Shown here in pieces: positions 15,519 to 24,238 of a DNA stretch of 34,035 nt. Under the pieces are notes generated by a model that searched no databases, was not told the DNA's origin, and saw only the letters and a list, made by a program, of their open reading frames with translations. Within the stretch, counting starts at the first letter, position 1. Every line of letters starts with the position of its first letter. The stretch covers positions 1 to 34,035 of the forward strand of contig CANLII010000023.1 of NCBI GenBank assembly GCA_947491315.1, written 5' to 3'. This stretch comes from Ignavibacteria bacterium (GTDB taxonomy: Bacteria; Bacteroidota; Ignavibacteria; Kapaibacteriales; UBA961). The translations under genes and the position numbers were made by a program.

Positions 15519-16967
15519 TTACAAGTTTTTTATTTCCGCAATGAGATCTTGTAATACTTTTTTGGAGTCTCCGAATAACATCGAAGTTTTGGGTCGGAAA
15601 AAGAGCTCATTCTCAATACCTGCATAACCGGGTTTCATGCTTCGTTTATTTACAATGACATGCTTTGCTGACTCTACCTCTAAAATGGGCATGCCATAAA
15701 TTGGCGAACTAGGATCTGTTTTTGCTGCTGGATTCACCACATCATTTGCGCCCAATACAAGCACTGCATCTACGGAAGGAAATTCATCATTGATTTCTTC
15801 CATTTCTTTGAGCTTCTCATAAGGAACATCGGCTTCGGCTAGCAATACATTCATATGACCGGGCATGCGACCTGCAACTGGATGAATTGCATATGTGACT
15901 TCTACGCCTTTTTCGGTAAGCAATTTTTCCAATTCATGACACACATGTTGGGCTTGCGCAACGGCAAGACCATAACCGGGGACAATAACGACCTTAGAAG
16001 AATAGGACATCAATACTGCTACATCGGAAATGGACATTTCTTTATGTGCACCTTGTACTCCCGTTGATTGACCGGATTGCGCACTTACACCGAATGAACC
16101 GATGAGTACATTCAACAGTGATCTATTCATTGCATTGCACATAAGAATCGTAAGAAGGGTTCCTGCCGCGCCCACCAAAATTCCACCTGTGAGCATTGCT
16201 GTATTGTCATATAAAAATCCACCGCATGCCGCAGCAATTCCGGTGAATGAATTGAGAAGTGATATCACGACTGGCATATCCGCGCCACCAATCGGCAAGA
16301 CGAAGAGAATGCCATAGACAGCTGATAGAACCAAAGCCGCATAGAAAAATTCGATGGTTTCTTCGGGTCTTAGAAAGATGATCATAGTAGTCAAACCAAC
16401 CGTGACAAGCAGAAGTAAAATATTCACGATATGCTGTCCGGAAAAGGCAAAGTCATTCAATCGACCATCCAATTTCGCCCATGCAATCATAGATCCCGTA
16501 AAACTCACCGAACCGATAATCAATCCTGCCATGATAACCAGCAGTGATACACCGTCAAGCGTAGAGAAATAGGTATAACCACCTCCAGCATAGAGTTCAG
16601 GTTGAAAATCGTGCACGAGATGTTTGAATTCAATGATTGAAATGAGTGCGGCACAAGCTCCACCCATTCCATTGAATAAACTTACCATTTGAGGCATGTC
16701 TGTCATCTTGACTTTTTTTGCTGACATAGTTCCCACGATTCCGCCAATCGCCAATCCGCCAAGAATCCATAGATGATTTCCGAGATGTTCACCGGATGAA
16801 TCTGTATAGAATGCAATTGTTCCTATAATCGCGAGAGCCATGCCAGCTGCAGCGATTAAATTACCATTGCGGGCAGTTTTTGGATTGGAGAGCATCTTTA
16901 AACCAAGAATGAAGGTTATGGATGCAATCAGATAGATAAGTAGAAGGAGAGATTCCATGAGATTCAT
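15519..16967 (-). CDS. pntB: NAD(P) transhydrogenase subunit beta
   Basis: 482 residues, normal for PntB. The N-terminal ~270 residues carry about nine membrane helices of the proton channel domain II, including the conserved G-G-x-G-A block GMGGACAALISIIE (about 100-113). The C-terminal ~180 residues are the NADP(H)-binding domain III: VIVPGYGLAVAQAQH (about 334), VAGRMPGHMNVLLAEA, LVLGANDVVNPAA (about 400) and NKRSMKPGYAGIENELFF. With PntAA/PntAB it transfers hydride from NADH to NADP+, driven by protons entering the cell. Its ATG overlaps the pntAB stop by 4 bases, so translation is coupled. Confidence 0.96.
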   Translation of the reverse strand: MNLMESLLLLIYLIASITFILGLKMLSNPKTARNGNLIAAAGMALAIIGTIAFYTDSSGEHLGNHLWILGGLAIGGIVGTMSAKKVKMTDMPQMVSLFNGMGGACAALISIIEFKHLVHDFQPELYAGGGYTYFSTLDGVSLLVIMAGLIIGSVSFTGSMIAWAKLDGRLNDFAFSGQHIVNILLLLVTVGLTTMIIFLRPEETIEFFYAALVLSAVYGILFVLPIGGADMPVVISLLNSFTGIAAACGGFLYDNTAMLTGGILVGAAGTLLTILMCNAMNRSLLNVLIGSFGVSAQSGQSTGVQGAHKEMSISDVAVLMSYSSKVVIVPGYGLAVAQAQHVCHELEKLLTEKGVEVTYAIHPVAGRMPGHMNVLLAEADVPYEKLKEMEEINDEFPSVDAVLVLGANDVVNPAAKTDPSSPIYGMPILEVESAKHVIVNKRSMKPGYAGIENELFFRPKTSMLFGDSKKVLQDLIAEIKNL

Positions 16968-17272
16968 TTTTTCTTGTTAAACATTTCCAGCATTCTATCA
17001 GTGACGACAAATCCACCAACAACATTCAATGTACCAAGTATCACCGCAAGAAATCCAAGAATCAATGCAGTAATATCAGTGGTATCGGCATTGCCCATCA
17101 CGATGATTGCACCGATGATTACAACACCATGAATGGCATTGGCACCACTCATGAGAGGTGTGTGCAATACGCTGGGCACGCGACCAATGATTTCTATTCC
17201 CACAAAAATCATCAGTATGACTATGTATATCATATCCTGATGCTGAGTAAACCAATTGAGGAGCTGGTCCAT
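16964..17272 (-). CDS. pntAB: NAD(P) transhydrogenase subunit alpha part 2 (membrane part)
   Basis: 102 residues with three hydrophobic helices (about 14-33, 46-62 and 66-92), including the typical LHTPLMSGANAIHGVVIIGA stretch (about 36-55). This is the membrane part of the alpha subunit made as a separate chain, as in Rhodospirillum rubrum-type three-gene enzymes. It lies 11 bases behind pntAA and overlaps pntB by 4 bases. Confidence 0.95.
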   Translation of the reverse strand: MDQLLNWFTQHQDMIYIVILMIFVGIEIIGRVPSVLHTPLMSGANAIHGVVIIGAIIVMGNADTTDITALILGFLAVILGTLNVVGGFVVTDRMLEMFNKKK

Positions 17273-17283
17273 ATTTGTTCTCT

Positions 17284-18387
17284 TTAAGATTTTAATCGTT
17301 CATGGATGATATTGCCGTCTTTCATGATGCATGTACCTTTCACGAGATCATCTTCAAAATTGAGATGATATATCGCCTGCTCACCGGTGATCAATTGCAG
17401 AAAATTGATGATGTTTTTTCCATATAATTTACTGGCATCAGCAGGCATCATACGAGCGAGATTACTATTTCCGATGATCTTGATCCCATTATGCATGATG
17501 GATTCATCATTTTTCGTGAGCGGTGTATTTCCACCGGTGGAAGCCGCCAAATCAATGATGATGCTTCCTTTGCGCATGGAATCCAGCATTTCTTGTGTGA
17601 TCAAGATTGGTGCTTTCATTCCGGGAATCTGAGCGGTTGTGATGATGATGTCAGCTTTCGCTGCACTTTCAGCAATCCTTACATTTTGTCTTGCTTTAAA
17701 ATCTTCTGTTTGTTCCACGGCATAACCACCTGCTTGGCTGGCATCGCCCGCGCCTTCCACTTCGATGAACTTTGCGCCAAGACTCATTACTTCTTCTTTT
17801 ACTGCGGGTCTTGTGTCAAACACTTCAACAACTGCACCTAATCTTCTGGAAGTTGCGATGGCTTGAAGTCCTGCCACACCTGCTCCAAGAATCAGAATTT
17901 TTGCCGGAGCAATGCTGCCCGCTGCTGTCATTAACATGGGAAAATATCGTGAGTATTCTGCGGCTGCCAATAATACGGCTTTATATCCTGCGATATTTGC
18001 CTGCGAACTCAAGATGTCCATGCTCTGCGCGCGCGTGGTTCTCGGGAGCATATCCAGTGAAAACACCGTATTTCCATGAGAGGAAAATTGTTGATTCGAT
18101 TCGGTATTGACCAATGGATAATATACTCCGATTAGCGTTTTGGAGCGTGCATTTGAGACCGGTTCAGGATGGATGGAAAGGAGGATTTCGCTTGATTGAA
18201 TCACGGATTCAGCATTGGTGACCATTGCTCCCGCTTTTGCATATTCATCATCGGAAGCAAAAGCCAAAATGCCTGCGCCTGTTTCAACACTAACCGTATG
18301 ACCTTTTCCGATGAGTGAAGCAACCGCTTCGGGTAAGAGAGAAACTCTTGTTTCACCGGAAGATTCTTTCATGATACCAATGTGCAT
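17284..18387 (-). CDS. pntAA: NAD(P) transhydrogenase subunit alpha part 1 (NAD-binding)
   Basis: 367 residues, soluble, matching domain I of transhydrogenase (alanine dehydrogenase-like fold). Visible are the N-terminal motif KESSGETRVSLLPEAV (about 8-23), the NAD-binding loop LILGAGVAGLQAIATSRRLG (about 165-184) with the acidic residue VFDTRP after the next strand, the mobile-loop region, and DIIITTAQIPGMKAPILIT (about 249-267). It binds NADH and passes hydride to domain III of PntB. AGGA sits about 9 bases before the ATG. It is first of the pnt operon, and the rhodopsin gene lies 131 bases upstream on the same strand with a terminator between. Confidence 0.96.
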   Translation of the reverse strand: MHIGIMKESSGETRVSLLPEAVASLIGKGHTVSVETGAGILAFASDDEYAKAGAMVTNAESVIQSSEILLSIHPEPVSNARSKTLIGVYYPLVNTESNQQFSSHGNTVFSLDMLPRTTRAQSMDILSSQANIAGYKAVLLAAAEYSRYFPMLMTAAGSIAPAKILILGAGVAGLQAIATSRRLGAVVEVFDTRPAVKEEVMSLGAKFIEVEGAGDASQAGGYAVEQTEDFKARQNVRIAESAAKADIIITTAQIPGMKAPILITQEMLDSMRKGSIIIDLAASTGGNTPLTKNDESIMHNGIKIIGNSNLARMMPADASKLYGKNIINFLQLITGEQAIYHLNFEDDLVKGTCIMKDGNIIHERLKS

Positions 18388-18460
18388 TGTTCGATTCCTG
18401 CTTTGACGAATATTCTTAACTTAGGAAACACAATCAAATTTAACAAAGAAGTACATCATT

Positions 18461-18497
18461 AAAAAAACCCCAATACCTTTCAGTATCAGGGTTTTAT
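18461..18497 (-). terminator. Terminator between rhodopsin and pntAA
   Basis: On the minus strand, AACCCTGATAC and GTATTGGGGTT pair over 11 positions (nine Watson-Crick, two G-T) around a 6-base loop, followed by a T-run. It lies just after the rhodopsin stop, so most rhodopsin transcripts should end here; some read-through into pntAA is possible. Confidence 0.8.
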
Positions 18498-18518: not shown

Positions 18519-19247
18519 TTAATCTTCTTTTCTACTCAACATGTAAATCACAAGACCAAATCCGATCTTATTAACGGCATCACCGATATTATACACGATG
18601 TCCATTGAATATTGAGCCGCTTTTGGATCTGCAACCATTTGATTGCCAAACAATCCACCTGTTGTACCAAGGATATATCCCAATGGATAGATCGCCCAAC
18701 CAACAAGCACGAACCAACCAAGATAGCGATTTGCTTGTGCAACTGCTGGTGAAGATGATTTTGCCAATTTGGCAATGTCACCCGCCCATACCAACCATAC
18801 GATATATCCATATCCCACGGATGAAATTGTGCCCCAAATCCAGCTTGATGCGTCTTGTCCATGCAATGCTTCGCCGATATAACCAGTCACCAACATGAAA
18901 ACCGAAGCAATGATCAATTTCCATAAAAGACCAATCGTCGCGCCCGCCTTCTTTGTGATGAGATAAAACTCAACGCACATCAGGGGCACTGTCAATAACC
19001 AATCCACATAACGGAAGAAAGTCGGTGATTCACCGGTTTCCAAATTATAACTGCGCATATAATAATAATGCACGGCAGCTATAAATGTGATAATACCGGA
19101 AACGAGAACAGATGTTCTCCAACGAGCAGGCGTGGTATTTAACTCTAAGAAGAAAAATACCGAAGCAGCCATCATTGCCATTGTGCCGATAAAAAATGTA
19201 AAGGCCACATAATTACCGGGAGCAATCGTAGCTAATTCATGTCCCAT
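18519..19247 (-). CDS. Proteorhodopsin-type light-driven proton pump with antenna-site glycine
   Basis: 242 residues, seven membrane helices. Helix C RYVDWLLTVPLMCVEFYLI (79-97) gives D82 (proton acceptor), T86 and E93 (proton donor), the DTE pattern of outward H+ pumps; H60 (AAVHYYYMR) matches the His paired with the acceptor in green proteorhodopsin. K227 (DAVNKIGFG) is the retinal Schiff-base lysine. Met90 is at the spectral tuning position 105 of proteorhodopsin; Leu/Met there usually gives green absorption, Gln blue. In helix E, SSWIWGTISSVGYGY aligns G139 with Gly156 of xanthorhodopsin (and Phe152 of green proteorhodopsin), the residue that opens a window for a carotenoid antenna. AGAGG lies 6 bases before the ATG. 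Retinal could come from the CrtY-Blh fusion at 22226-24238. Confidence 0.96.
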   Translation of the reverse strand: MGHELATIAPGNYVAFTFFIGTMAMMAASVFFFLELNTTPARWRTSVLVSGIITFIAAVHYYYMRSYNLETGESPTFFRYVDWLLTVPLMCVEFYLITKKAGATIGLLWKLIIASVFMLVTGYIGEALHGQDASSWIWGTISSVGYGYIVWLVWAGDIAKLAKSSSPAVAQANRYLGWFVLVGWAIYPLGYILGTTGGLFGNQMVADPKAAQYSMDIVYNIGDAVNKIGFGLVIYMLSRKED

Positions 19248-19979: not shown

Positions 19980-21407
19980 ATGAAATACTTGTGTATCTAC
20001 ATAATGCTGACTCTTAGCATTGTTATCAATGCTCGTACTCTCGATGTCGGAATCGGCAAGACCTATTCCAATCCTCGTTTGGCATGCTTGGATGCAAAGC
20101 CAGGTGATACGGTGCTCATTCATCCGGGTATGTATCAAGGTGCTTTTTTCATTGAGGATATTGCAGGCACTGCGAATGCTCCAATCGTGATTCGAGGTGT
20201 CCATCGTGATTCCGTTATTTTTCAGGGTGGATCCGAATCCATGCACTTTTCGGAGTGTTCTCATATGATCATTGAGAACTTCACGGTGAATGGTCAGACA
20301 AGCAATGGAATGAATTGCGATGATGGTGGAACATTTGATACCCCAACGCATCATATGGTTTTTAGATATCTGACATTCTCCGGAATGGGAGCAAGCGGTA
20401 ACAATGATCAATTGAAATTATCGGGTCTTGATGACTTCGTGATTGAACATTGCATCTTCGAAAATGGCTCACCAGGCGGAAGTGGTGCGGATATGGTGGG
20501 ATGTCATAAAGGAATATTCAGAAATAATATATTCAGAAAATCAGGTTCGAATTGCATACAGGCAAAAGGTGGAACGCGGTATATCCGCATCGAACAGAAT
20601 TCATTCATCGATGGTGGTCAGCGCGCTTTGAATTTGGGTGGTTCTACTGGACTTGAATTTTTCAGACCGCTCAATGCAACGCATGAAGCGGCTGATTTGA
20701 TGGTCACGGGAAATGTGTTCGTCCGTTCCGTGACACCGATGGCTTATGTGGGTTCCGTGCGTGTGTCCGTCACAAATAATACGATCATCGATCCCGAACG
20801 ATGGGTATTCCGCATCCTACAAGAAACCGTTGATCCCAATCGTTTTGAACCATGTGGAAATAATATCTTTCAGAATAATCTGGTGGTATTTCGTTCGACA
20901 ATTTCCCGCCATGTGAATATCGGCGGTAATACCGCTCCCCAAACATTTCTCCTGAGAAATAATCTATGGTATAATGTCGATAATCCATCTGCATCCAAGC
21001 CACAAGAAGCGCAATTAACGGAATCAAATTCTCTCTATGGAATTGACCCTGAATTGGAATCGTATCAAAATGGTGATTATCGACTGAAGTCCACGAGCCC
21101 GGCAATTGGTAAAGGGTACTCCACGGGTGAAGGAATCAAAGATCATGAAGGAAAACCATTTGCCAATCCTCCTTCCATCGGTGCTTATCAAGCACAAAGC
21201 ATTTCAGGAATAGATGAATTACTCACACAAAAGAACATAGAATATACTCGAACAACCGATGGGATCTGGCTGAATATTTCACACAATCAACTCCCGATGC
21301 AATTTGATGTATTTGATATTCGCGGTGCTTTTGTCAAAACGATTTCAGCTACCGAAACGCGCACATTTATTCCATTGGGGAGATATGAGTTTGTGATGGG
21401 AAGATGA
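19980..21407 (+). CDS. Secreted right-handed parallel beta-helix protein
   Basis: 475 residues with a signal peptide (MKYLCIYIMLTLSIVINA). The opening KPGDTVLIHPGMYQG and APIVIRGVHRDSVIF is typical of PL6/pectate-lyase-like beta-helices. Repeating coils follow with N-x-(I/F) ladders (IIENFTVNG, FVIEHCIFENG, GIFRNNIFRKSG, IRIEQNSFIDGG, LMVTGNVFV, VSVTNNTII, NIFQNNLVVF, FLLRNNLWY) at about 85-345. The stretch DYRLKSTSPAIGKG … PSIGAYQ closes the domain (about 364-400). The last ~70 residues resemble a weak, shortened T9SS tail (DVFDIRGAFVKTIS, RYEFVMGR). A polysaccharide lyase or surface-binding role is possible, but no catalytic residues were assigned. It diverges from rhodopsin. Confidence 0.78.
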   Translation: MKYLCIYIMLTLSIVINARTLDVGIGKTYSNPRLACLDAKPGDTVLIHPGMYQGAFFIEDIAGTANAPIVIRGVHRDSVIFQGGSESMHFSECSHMIIENFTVNGQTSNGMNCDDGGTFDTPTHHMVFRYLTFSGMGASGNNDQLKLSGLDDFVIEHCIFENGSPGGSGADMVGCHKGIFRNNIFRKSGSNCIQAKGGTRYIRIEQNSFIDGGQRALNLGGSTGLEFFRPLNATHEAADLMVTGNVFVRSVTPMAYVGSVRVSVTNNTIIDPERWVFRILQETVDPNRFEPCGNNIFQNNLVVFRSTISRHVNIGGNTAPQTFLLRNNLWYNVDNPSASKPQEAQLTESNSLYGIDPELESYQNGDYRLKSTSPAIGKGYSTGEGIKDHEGKPFANPPSIGAYQAQSISGIDELLTQKNIEYTRTTDGIWLNISHNQLPMQFDVFDIRGAFVKTISATETRTFIPLGRYEFVMGR

Positions 21408-21498
21408 GAAATTACATATGGAATATCAAGTCATTTGCCACTGAAATTCATACCGAATCTAAACATCATCTATACAATCATCTACAAAGTCAATAATT

Positions 21499-21512
21499 TC
21501 TCAGTATTGAGA
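21499..21512. promoter_or_regulatory. Possible operator palindrome before higB
   Basis: TCTCA-GTAT-TGAGA, an inverted repeat with 5-base arms and a 4-base spacer, lies 28 bases before the first possible start of the toxin gene. HigA-type antitoxins repress their own operons through such palindromes; the arms are short, so support is limited. Confidence 0.3.
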
Positions 21513-21582
21513 GAAGGGGGCTTGATTTACTTTTAGGAAAATGTTGTCTGATAATGTAACTTTGTTTTGGGGTTGTATGGCT

Positions 21583-21933
21583 ATGTTCAAGCAACGCGTA
21601 TTGTTTTTCTACGAGGATTACTTTTGGGATGTATTTGAAACTTTAAATCAAGAGTCACAGGAAAAGTTCAATAGAATTTTACGACTAATTTCTACAACTG
21701 AAAATATTTCTAAATCTATATTCAAACATGTGACAGATAGTAGAGGACTATTTGAAATCAGAATTGAGACACTGACTGGTAGATACAGAGTATTTTGCTT
21801 CTTTGATAGGAATAACCGTTTGATTATCATAAATGGATTTTTAAAGAAAAGTGCCAATACACCAAAGAAAGAGTTACAAAAAGCAATGAGAATTAGAAAA
21901 GAGTACTTTACAAATGTTATTGATTCAAACTAA
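21583..21933 (+). CDS. higB: Type II toxin, RelE/HigB (Gp49-like) family
   Basis: The frame is open with an ATG at 21541, but the family normally begins near the internal ATG at 21583 (MFKQRVLFFY), giving 116 residues. The body matches RelE/HigB toxins of the phage-derived Gp49-like type: FKHVTDSRGLFEIRIE (about 47-62), TGRYRVFCFFDRNNRLIIINGFLKKS (long basic beta-hairpin split over about 65-90) and a Lys/Arg-rich C-terminal helix ELQKAMRIRKEYF. Such toxins cleave mRNA on the ribosome. The start of the likely antitoxin gene lies 14 bases downstream, the toxin-first order typical of higBA. Alternative start: 21541, with AGGAAA only four bases upstream. Confidence 0.82.
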   Translation: MFKQRVLFFYEDYFWDVFETLNQESQEKFNRILRLISTTENISKSIFKHVTDSRGLFEIRIETLTGRYRVFCFFDRNNRLIIINGFLKKSANTPKKELQKAMRIRKEYFTNVIDSN

Positions 21934-21947
21934 TCAGGAATTGTACT

Positions 21948-22253
21948 ATGAAAAAGAATCAGAATAAAATGGTTTCCTTTACAGATCATCTCGATAAGTA
22001 TTATGGAAAAAGAGGAGAAAAAAAGAGAGAGGAATTTGAACAAGGTTTTGAAACCTTCAAACTTGGAATCATGATGAAGGATTTGAGAAAGAGCAGGGGA
22101 TTGACTCAAGAACAATTAGCTAGTAAATGCGGTACGACTAAACACTATATCTCAAGAATCGAAAATAATGCAAGCGATATAAGAATTTCAACATTGATCA
22201 GAATTCTGCATGATGGACTTGGTGCTCACTTGCGTTTGAATATCGACCCATAG
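21948..22253 (+). CDS. higA: HigA-like antitoxin, XRE-family helix-turn-helix protein
   Basis: 101 residues. An N-terminal charged, probably helical part (about 1-42, KKREEFEQGFETFKLG) binds the toxin in this family; an XRE helix-turn-helix follows at about 43-95: LRKSRGLTQEQLASKCG, TTKHYISRIEN and ISTLIRILHDGLG. It should neutralise HigB and repress the pair. AGGA precedes the ATG by nine bases. Its 3' end overlaps the 3' end of the convergent crtY-blh gene by 28 bases. Confidence 0.85.
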   Translation: MKKNQNKMVSFTDHLDKYYGKRGEKKREEFEQGFETFKLGIMMKDLRKSRGLTQEQLASKCGTTKHYISRIENNASDIRISTLIRILHDGLGAHLRLNIDP

Positions 22254-24238
22254 AAAGAGTGCATTTCAAGAACATGAGGGAAGCTCAGACATGAAAGAAA
22301 GACAAAGAATAATGGGGCGAATTCATGGATGGCGAGATTCCCGCTAAAGAAGAACAAGGAGAGAATTGCAAATGCTCCTAGAGAAAATGGAGCGGATAAT
22401 TCTAATAATTCCAAGTGTGTTTTGTTCAGCCCTTTCTTTAAATGATTCCATCCGAGAAAACTATGATGAAACACAAAATACACTCCGAATGCCTGTAAGA
22501 GCGGTAAGAATATTCCCATTAATAATGAAGCAGTTGACAATATCGTGCTCTTTCGTGGTTGTATGAACACAGTCAGAATTAGCAACACAATTGATGATTC
22601 CGATAGCAAAGATGATGTCAAAAATCCGGCTGTATCGGGTATTGAGGGAATCGACAAAGCATTGATAATTACATTTGTCTCAGGAATATGCGTGGCAAGT
22701 ATGAATGACAATACGGCAAAACCTCGGAGAAATAGAAGCCATGGATTATGGATATTTTCTTGTTCATATTCCGCCTGACCAAAATGCCACATGGAATAGA
22801 GCAAGAAGATGATGAGTCCAATCAGAGGAGACATAATCCAAATCGCCAACATGATCATTCCCTTCGCCACATAGCCGAGTATAAATAATGCAAGTGATTG
22901 TATAGATCTTTCGCCGATAGACAATACATGATCCATTGCTCCATGCGGAATGCCGATTAATATCATGCCAATGGCAAGTACACTCCAATTGATCCATTCT
23001 AGTTCATACTGCTTGGAAAGAAGAAAAAAGAGAGAAACAATCAATGGAAGAAATCCAAATGCATGTCGGGCAATTCCTGAGAATATATCCTTCACCGCAT
23101 ACTTCATGAATAGTAACTTGGGCAATGCTATGAATATGGAGATATCTTCAAGAAATGGAGTTTTTTCCTCGAGGAATTGTAGCACTATCTTTCTATCAAC
23201 ATATTGAAACAATCGTTCAAATATTTCTTTACCTCGGTGAGGATGTGATTCCAAAATCTTTAATAAGAGTCTATCATAGAAAGAAAACTTTCCGGAGCGA
23301 AGAATCACTCTCTGTTTGAAGTGCTGGGAATGTATTGAATCAACAATATGAATGGCATCCCGCGCCATTTCCTTGAAAGCATATCCTGTACTCGGTTTAA
23401 CTTTTCCGGCACCACTCCCTGTTCTATAGAAAGTTTGTGATATACTTTCCTCTTGTAATGTGCAAGAAGACATCGGGATTATGCCTTGTTCTTCATGTTC
23501 AATAACATATAAACCAAGTTGTTTCTGCTGACAATATCTCGTTAATTGTTCTTGTGCATAGGTATGATCAATTGGACTGGATCCAAAGCGTGTCAATTCG
23601 ATGAGTGCATGAGTTGGAGAGAAAGGAAGTACATAGACAAATTGCGTTGCATTCGATTGATCAACTGAAAAGTCCATCATCGTGAATGTTTCAATATCAA
23701 ATTGTGGCTCTTCAGTTGTGATTCTCCAGCCGAAGAAGGATTGCAATAAAAATGTTTGATGTGATTGCGGAGGATTCCATCGAGGAGGCCTTGAATCAAA
23801 CACATACTTTGTAGTGATTGTATGATTCTGTGTTGTGATGGTCAGGAGAGAATTGGCAGGATTATTTGACACAGTCTCTGCCCGCTCGCGGATGAATTGT
23901 ACATTGCATGTAGAGAGAATGGACCGAAGTTCATCATACAATGTTATGCTAGAAATATGATGATAACTGTATGGCGAGACTGCTCGTGGAGCATCTGCAT
24001 TTATTCCCAATAATTCCCATGAGTGATTAATGAGTGATGCAATACCCAACTCTTCAATTTCTTTTTTCTTTGCCCAAAAGCAGAATGTTTTGTCATTCAA
24101 TAACTTTTCATCCGGATCAATGATCACAAATGAAGCATTATATAACATATCTTGAGCATGCATTTGGCGGATGATGAGGGAATTTGCGGCTCCCAAACCA
24201 ATAAAGACATAATCTACTATGTGTTCAGATTCTTGCAT
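22226..24238 (-). CDS. Lycopene beta-cyclase / beta-carotene 15,15'-dioxygenase fusion (CrtY-Blh)
   Basis: 670 residues, two enzymes in one chain. Residues about 1-385 are a CrtY-type lycopene cyclase: dinucleotide-binding start YVFIGLGAANSL (10-21), LNDKTFCFW, VFDSRPP (about 146), FVYVLPFSPTHALIELTRF (about 200-218), EEQGIIPMS and GSGAGKVKPSTGYAFKEM (about 275-292). Residues about 390-670 are a Brp/Blh-type membrane dioxygenase with about seven helices and all the His motifs expected for iron: GIPHGAMDH (about 428), WHFGQAE (about 482), FHHSFLGWNH (about 590) and FPHVLEMH (about 650). Together they convert lycopene to beta-carotene and cleave it to two retinals for the rhodopsin at 18519-19247. 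Separate crtY and blh genes are the usual state. Frame is open throughout with no internal stop. No crtE, crtB or crtI is in the window. Confidence 0.95.
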   Translation of the reverse strand: MQESEHIVDYVFIGLGAANSLIIRQMHAQDMLYNASFVIIDPDEKLLNDKTFCFWAKKKEIEELGIASLINHSWELLGINADAPRAVSPYSYHHISSITLYDELRSILSTCNVQFIRERAETVSNNPANSLLTITTQNHTITTKYVFDSRPPRWNPPQSHQTFLLQSFFGWRITTEEPQFDIETFTMMDFSVDQSNATQFVYVLPFSPTHALIELTRFGSSPIDHTYAQEQLTRYCQQKQLGLYVIEHEEQGIIPMSSCTLQEESISQTFYRTGSGAGKVKPSTGYAFKEMARDAIHIVDSIHSQHFKQRVILRSGKFSFYDRLLLKILESHPHRGKEIFERLFQYVDRKIVLQFLEEKTPFLEDISIFIALPKLLFMKYAVKDIFSGIARHAFGFLPLIVSLFFLLSKQYELEWINWSVLAIGMILIGIPHGAMDHVLSIGERSIQSLALFILGYVAKGMIMLAIWIMSPLIGLIIFLLYSMWHFGQAEYEQENIHNPWLLFLRGFAVLSFILATHIPETNVIINALSIPSIPDTAGFLTSSLLSESSIVLLILTVFIQPRKSTILSTASLLMGIFLPLLQAFGVYFVFHHSFLGWNHLKKGLNKTHLELLELSAPFSLGAFAILSLFFFSGNLAIHEFAPLFFVFLSCLSFPHVLEMHSFYGSIFKRK

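Follow-up and report, generated by a model that had tools for sequence, protein, structure and literature searches.

The window analysed here, a stretch of 34,035 nucleotides from a bacterial genome, encodes a proteorhodopsin whose helix E carries a glycine at the position that opens xanthorhodopsin (XR) to its carotenoid antenna. The locus thereby raises the question whether a pump of the proteorhodopsin type may use such an antenna, and whether its host has the genes to make a fitting pigment.

The rhodopsin and its predicted fold

The gene coordinates given in the initial annotation (18519..19247) are retained, with the correction that the gene lies on the minus strand. Its product of 242 aa matches PF01036 (Bac_rhodopsin) over the full length (E 7e-42) and is the one rhodopsin found in the host genome (2.3 Mb, 49 contigs). 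Alignment identifies the conserved His of helix B (H60) together with the motif ETGESPTFFRYVDWLLTVP, the proton-pump residues D82 (counterion), T86 and E93 (proton donor), and the retinal lysine K227. M90 occupies the spectral-tuning position, where we take Met or Leu to accompany green absorption, and the protein probably absorbs in the green.

Identity amounts to about 58-59% with NM-R1, 44% with green proteorhodopsin (GPR) and 28% with XR; the XR sequence used agreed with 3ddl across all 258 residues submitted. In a quick tree the sequence stands on the proteorhodopsin side (80 rows) and not on the XR side (14 rows), with a support of 100. Together with H60 and ETGESPTFFRYVDWLLTVP these values bear out the earlier impression that the protein is, outside the glycine position, nearer to proteorhodopsin than to XR. 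Membership in the xanthorhodopsin family was rejected on its tree placement with the proteorhodopsins and its identity of 27-33% to XR, Gloeobacter rhodopsin (GR) and Kin4B8.

Structure prediction, which had been proposed as a check, returned a seven-helix bundle (mean pLDDT 87.9) with zeaxanthin-bound NM-R1 (9jou) as the best PDB match (Z 30.2; other structures 29.2 and below). NM-R1, from a marine flavobacterium, belongs to the same clade and shares the glycine and the pump motif, but has G146 in the place of S143 and a shorter F-G loop. Judged from these sequence features, the product is a member of the Bacteroidota proteorhodopsin clade and very likely pumps protons outward when illuminated.

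The fenestration glycine

An alignment of helix E by eye had put G139 (codon GGC, 18831..18833, minus strand, located by reading frame and alignment) opposite XR Gly156, where proteorhodopsins without an antenna were said to have Phe. This placement is correct. In the multiple alignment G139 shares one column with XR G156, Kin4B8 G153, GR G178 and NM-R1 (9jov) G142. Against GPR, helix E aligns without gaps in phmmer and G139 lies over the Phe of WPAFIIG; the GPR comparison rests on this ungapped alignment, as MAFFT places a two-residue gap beside the G139 point in the single GPR row. The blue proteorhodopsin 4knf likewise bears Phe in its PAFIIG motif. The green and blue proteorhodopsins compared (2l6x, 7b03, 4kly, 4knf) are proton pumps with the same conserved His, but have Phe in place of the glycine.

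The surprise that the initial annotation implied in an antenna glycine did not survive wider sampling. All 110 non-duplicate homologues keep Gly in the G139 column while most neighbouring columns vary, which argues against its occurrence by chance; the adjoining W138 is equally fixed across these 110 rows. Sampling one genome per species yielded 80 loci, and all 82 aligned hits, that of the host genome among them, have Gly. Rhodopsins occur in 37 of 296 genomes of the phylum, and all that were aligned, from close proteorhodopsins through xanthorhodopsins, have Gly, as does a homologue of 25% identity (L115). We consequently reject the notion of G139 as an exception among proteorhodopsins: among the sequences compared, this clade consistently has Gly, and the green and blue proteorhodopsins have Phe. 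A published survey found this glycine in all its Bacteroidota proteorhodopsins (PMC13043013). The fenestration glycine is real, but is a standard and published trait of this pump family.

The carotenoid pocket

The pocket residues named for Kin4B8 (Gly153, Thr157, Tyr204, Ser208 and Tyr209) correspond in the alignment to G139, S143, Y191, T195 and T196. The Thr in the place of Tyr209 counts against an antenna. The Tyr at the XR 207 position is conserved as Y191, but is not diagnostic of antenna-capable rhodopsins because GPR has Tyr there as well. XR (3ddl), Kin4B8 (7ytb, 8i2z) and GR (6nwd), all of the xanthorhodopsin family, share both the glycine position and this Tyr with the present protein. 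Glycine has been described as the primary criterion for carotenoid binding, and a polar pocket floor as accompanying 3-hydroxy carotenoids (PMC12308411). The same study reports binding of lutein and zeaxanthin by the proteorhodopsins KR1 (from Dokdonia eikasta) and EINA29G6, to which the present protein is likened by description. Its putative pocket floor matches the polar pattern.

The glycine on its own is no proof of binding, because the distant L115 homologue has it too. Nevertheless, homology supports the carotenoid-binding capacity that had been predicted for this proteorhodopsin-like pump: zeaxanthin-bound NM-R1 is the closest solved structure in both sequence and fold, the pocket has Gly, Tyr, Ser and Thr, and the genome encodes a CrtZ-type hydroxylase. 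A capacity to bind a hydroxylated carotenoid is thus well supported as a prediction. Such a capacity is not new, since carotenoid binding by proteorhodopsins of this kind (KR1, EINA29G6 and NM-R1) is already known.

Carotenoid genes of the host

The carotenoid genes of the host genome were searched one family at a time. The search for crtZ that had been recommended was successful: a CrtZ-type protein of 149 aa (L083) is encoded on a different contig, unlinked to the rhodopsin locus. It was assigned through comparison with plasmid records, being 46% identical to the hydroxylase that adjoins crtB in the crtB-crtI-crtY carotenoid cluster of Pantoea ananatis; an NCBIfam search with this candidate gave no match. 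An FA_hydroxylase protein of 203 aa (L082) was not accepted as CrtZ, as CrtZ-like motifs were absent by eye.

A CrtB candidate has phytoene synthase as its best NCBIfam model, with a score below the cut-off, CrtI (L117) scores above its family cut-off, and a CrtD-like desaturase (L118) is also present; L116 was discarded as CrtI and identified as HpnE. It is plausible that CrtZ, CrtB, CrtI and the CrtY-Blh protein described below would together yield zeaxanthin and retinal. The genome further encodes a CrtW-like beta-carotene ketolase (L123, 1216-1881, minus strand; score below the curated cut-off), which would make a ketocarotenoid a possible alternative to zeaxanthin as the bound pigment.

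Across the 391 genomes of the class, a CrtZ homologue occurs in 10 of 13 genomes with rhodopsin and in 52 of 378 without. This co-occurrence (Fisher p 1e-6, or 1.4e-4 by genus) is uncorrected for relatedness and suggestive only. The presence of CrtZ in genomes without rhodopsin, and its lack of linkage to the rhodopsin locus here, count against an antenna.

The CrtY-Blh fusion and the neighbourhood of the rhodopsin gene

A gene at 22226..24238 (minus strand) encodes a CrtY-Blh fusion of 670 aa (PF05834, E 1.8e-52; PF15461, E 2.1e-32), with lycopene cyclase CrtY at residues 9-374 and beta-carotene 15,15'-dioxygenase Blh at residues 424-657; the protein also exceeds the cut-off of TIGR03753. By its domains the fusion is predicted to supply beta-carotene and retinal. 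It lies 3 kb from the rhodopsin gene on the same strand, with a beta-helix gene and a RelE/XRE-like pair between them. Of the 80 related rhodopsin loci, 40 have a similar fusion, which in 36 cases begins 69-178 bp downstream of rhodopsin; CrtY-Blh is therefore the usual partner of rhodopsin in the clade. A limited literature search found no discussion of a bacterial CrtY-Blh fusion; a CrtI-CrtB-CrtYcd-Blh fusion has been described in a protist (PMC10016063).

Two genomes of the same genus differ in this region. In G391, the counterpart of 19980-22253 holds only the tails of the beta-helix and XRE-like genes between rhodopsin and CrtY-Blh. Either G391 has therefore lost the RelE/XRE-like pair and the bulk of the beta-helix gene, or the present genome has gained them. 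In G204, CrtY-Blh is only 37% identical, yet rhodopsin is 85% identical, which indicates that the two genes differ in history or rate.

Just downstream of the rhodopsin gene, a hairpin followed by a T run (18460..18497, minus strand; 14-pair stem, MFE -17.8 kcal/mol) forms a probable terminator, which the consensus scan did not list. An Rfam search of the window gave no match, and promoter-like sites in the window were no more frequent than in shuffles. The pntA-pntB transhydrogenase genes (15519-18387, minus strand) lie directly downstream of rhodopsin, and a proton-driven enzyme thus adjoins the proton pump. pntA is next to rhodopsin in G391 as well; the arrangement was not seen in L002.

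Host lineage and gene history

The host belongs to the Kapabacteria/Chlorobiota group and comes from a lake; its designation as Kapabacteria is our reading of the OPB56 name. The closest rhodopsins belong to two congeneric genomes, at 97% and 85%; one of these is recorded as 'Chlorobiota bacterium LBMAG_Chlorobi_hypo.bin1_OPB56'. Mostly freshwater Bacteroidota, including Chitinophagaceae, follow at 72-78%. The three sequences of the genus nest within this Bacteroidota group in a quick tree with modest support for the exact sister. No rhodopsin was found in the other sampled members of the host family, and a different family of the same order has a distinct proteorhodopsin (53-57% identical). 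The nesting and the lack of rhodopsin elsewhere in the sampled family make a transfer likely, and the Kapabacteria/OPB56 lineage probably gained the gene from freshwater Bacteroidota.

A fuller scenario is tentative, and we consider it rather doubtful as a whole: the lineage would have acquired an antenna proteorhodopsin from freshwater Bacteroidota that was later split from CrtY-Blh, and would serve it with self-made zeaxanthin or ketocarotenoid, the fusion channelling lycopene straight to retinal and free beta-carotene going to the antenna.

Four contigs with Bacteroidota-type rhodopsins (L020, L060, L051 and L067) occur in MAGs named Polynucleobacter, Methylotenera, Myxococcales and Proteobacteria, as a result of either mis-binning or misnaming, or of transfer.

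Proposed function and alternative explanations

The reading that we prefer, and hold to be probable on sequence grounds, is a proton pump with retinal from the nearby CrtY-Blh fusion protein and a hydroxylated carotenoid that aids light use. With glycine at 139, the side of helix E would stay open beside the ring of retinal. This opening is where a hydroxylated carotenoid, zeaxanthin for instance, would most likely rest against the protein, with the CrtZ of the genome contributing to its synthesis. The bound carotenoid would then hand blue-light energy to retinal, speed the photocycle, or both, effects that have been reported with KR1, Kin4B8 and NM-R1. Alternatively, the protein may be a plain proteorhodopsin pump that kept its glycine by descent, with the carotenoid unused in this organism. 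The fixation of Gly throughout the clade and in deep homologues would agree with its retention for packing, and crtZ sits on a different contig from rhodopsin; against this, zeaxanthin is bound in the closest relative of solved structure and the genome has the hydroxylase, and we regard this alternative as unlikely.

We give a similarly small probability to the binding of a ketocarotenoid as in XR and GR, with the CrtW-like enzyme taking part in its synthesis. This is a variant of the preferred reading, with which its probability overlaps. The ketolase candidate in the genome speaks for it, whereas the floor is polar (S143, T195 and T196) where XR and GR have M211/M233, in the pattern tied to 3-hydroxy carotenoids. 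A sensory or otherwise non-pumping rhodopsin is very improbable: the D-T-E pump motif is complete, the retinal lysine is present and the tree position is within the proteorhodopsin clade, while no transducer gene adjoins the rhodopsin gene and nothing was found in favour of such a function.

Implications

That Bacteroidota proteorhodopsins carry a carotenoid fenestration is already established, and what the present case contributes is chiefly one more host lineage and the occurrence of the needed hydroxylase in the same genome. The Kapabacteria/OPB56 host and the fused lycopene cyclase/beta-carotene-cleavage gene 3 kb from rhodopsin are mild additions. If the antenna works, it would extend the use of blue light to one more freshwater lineage.
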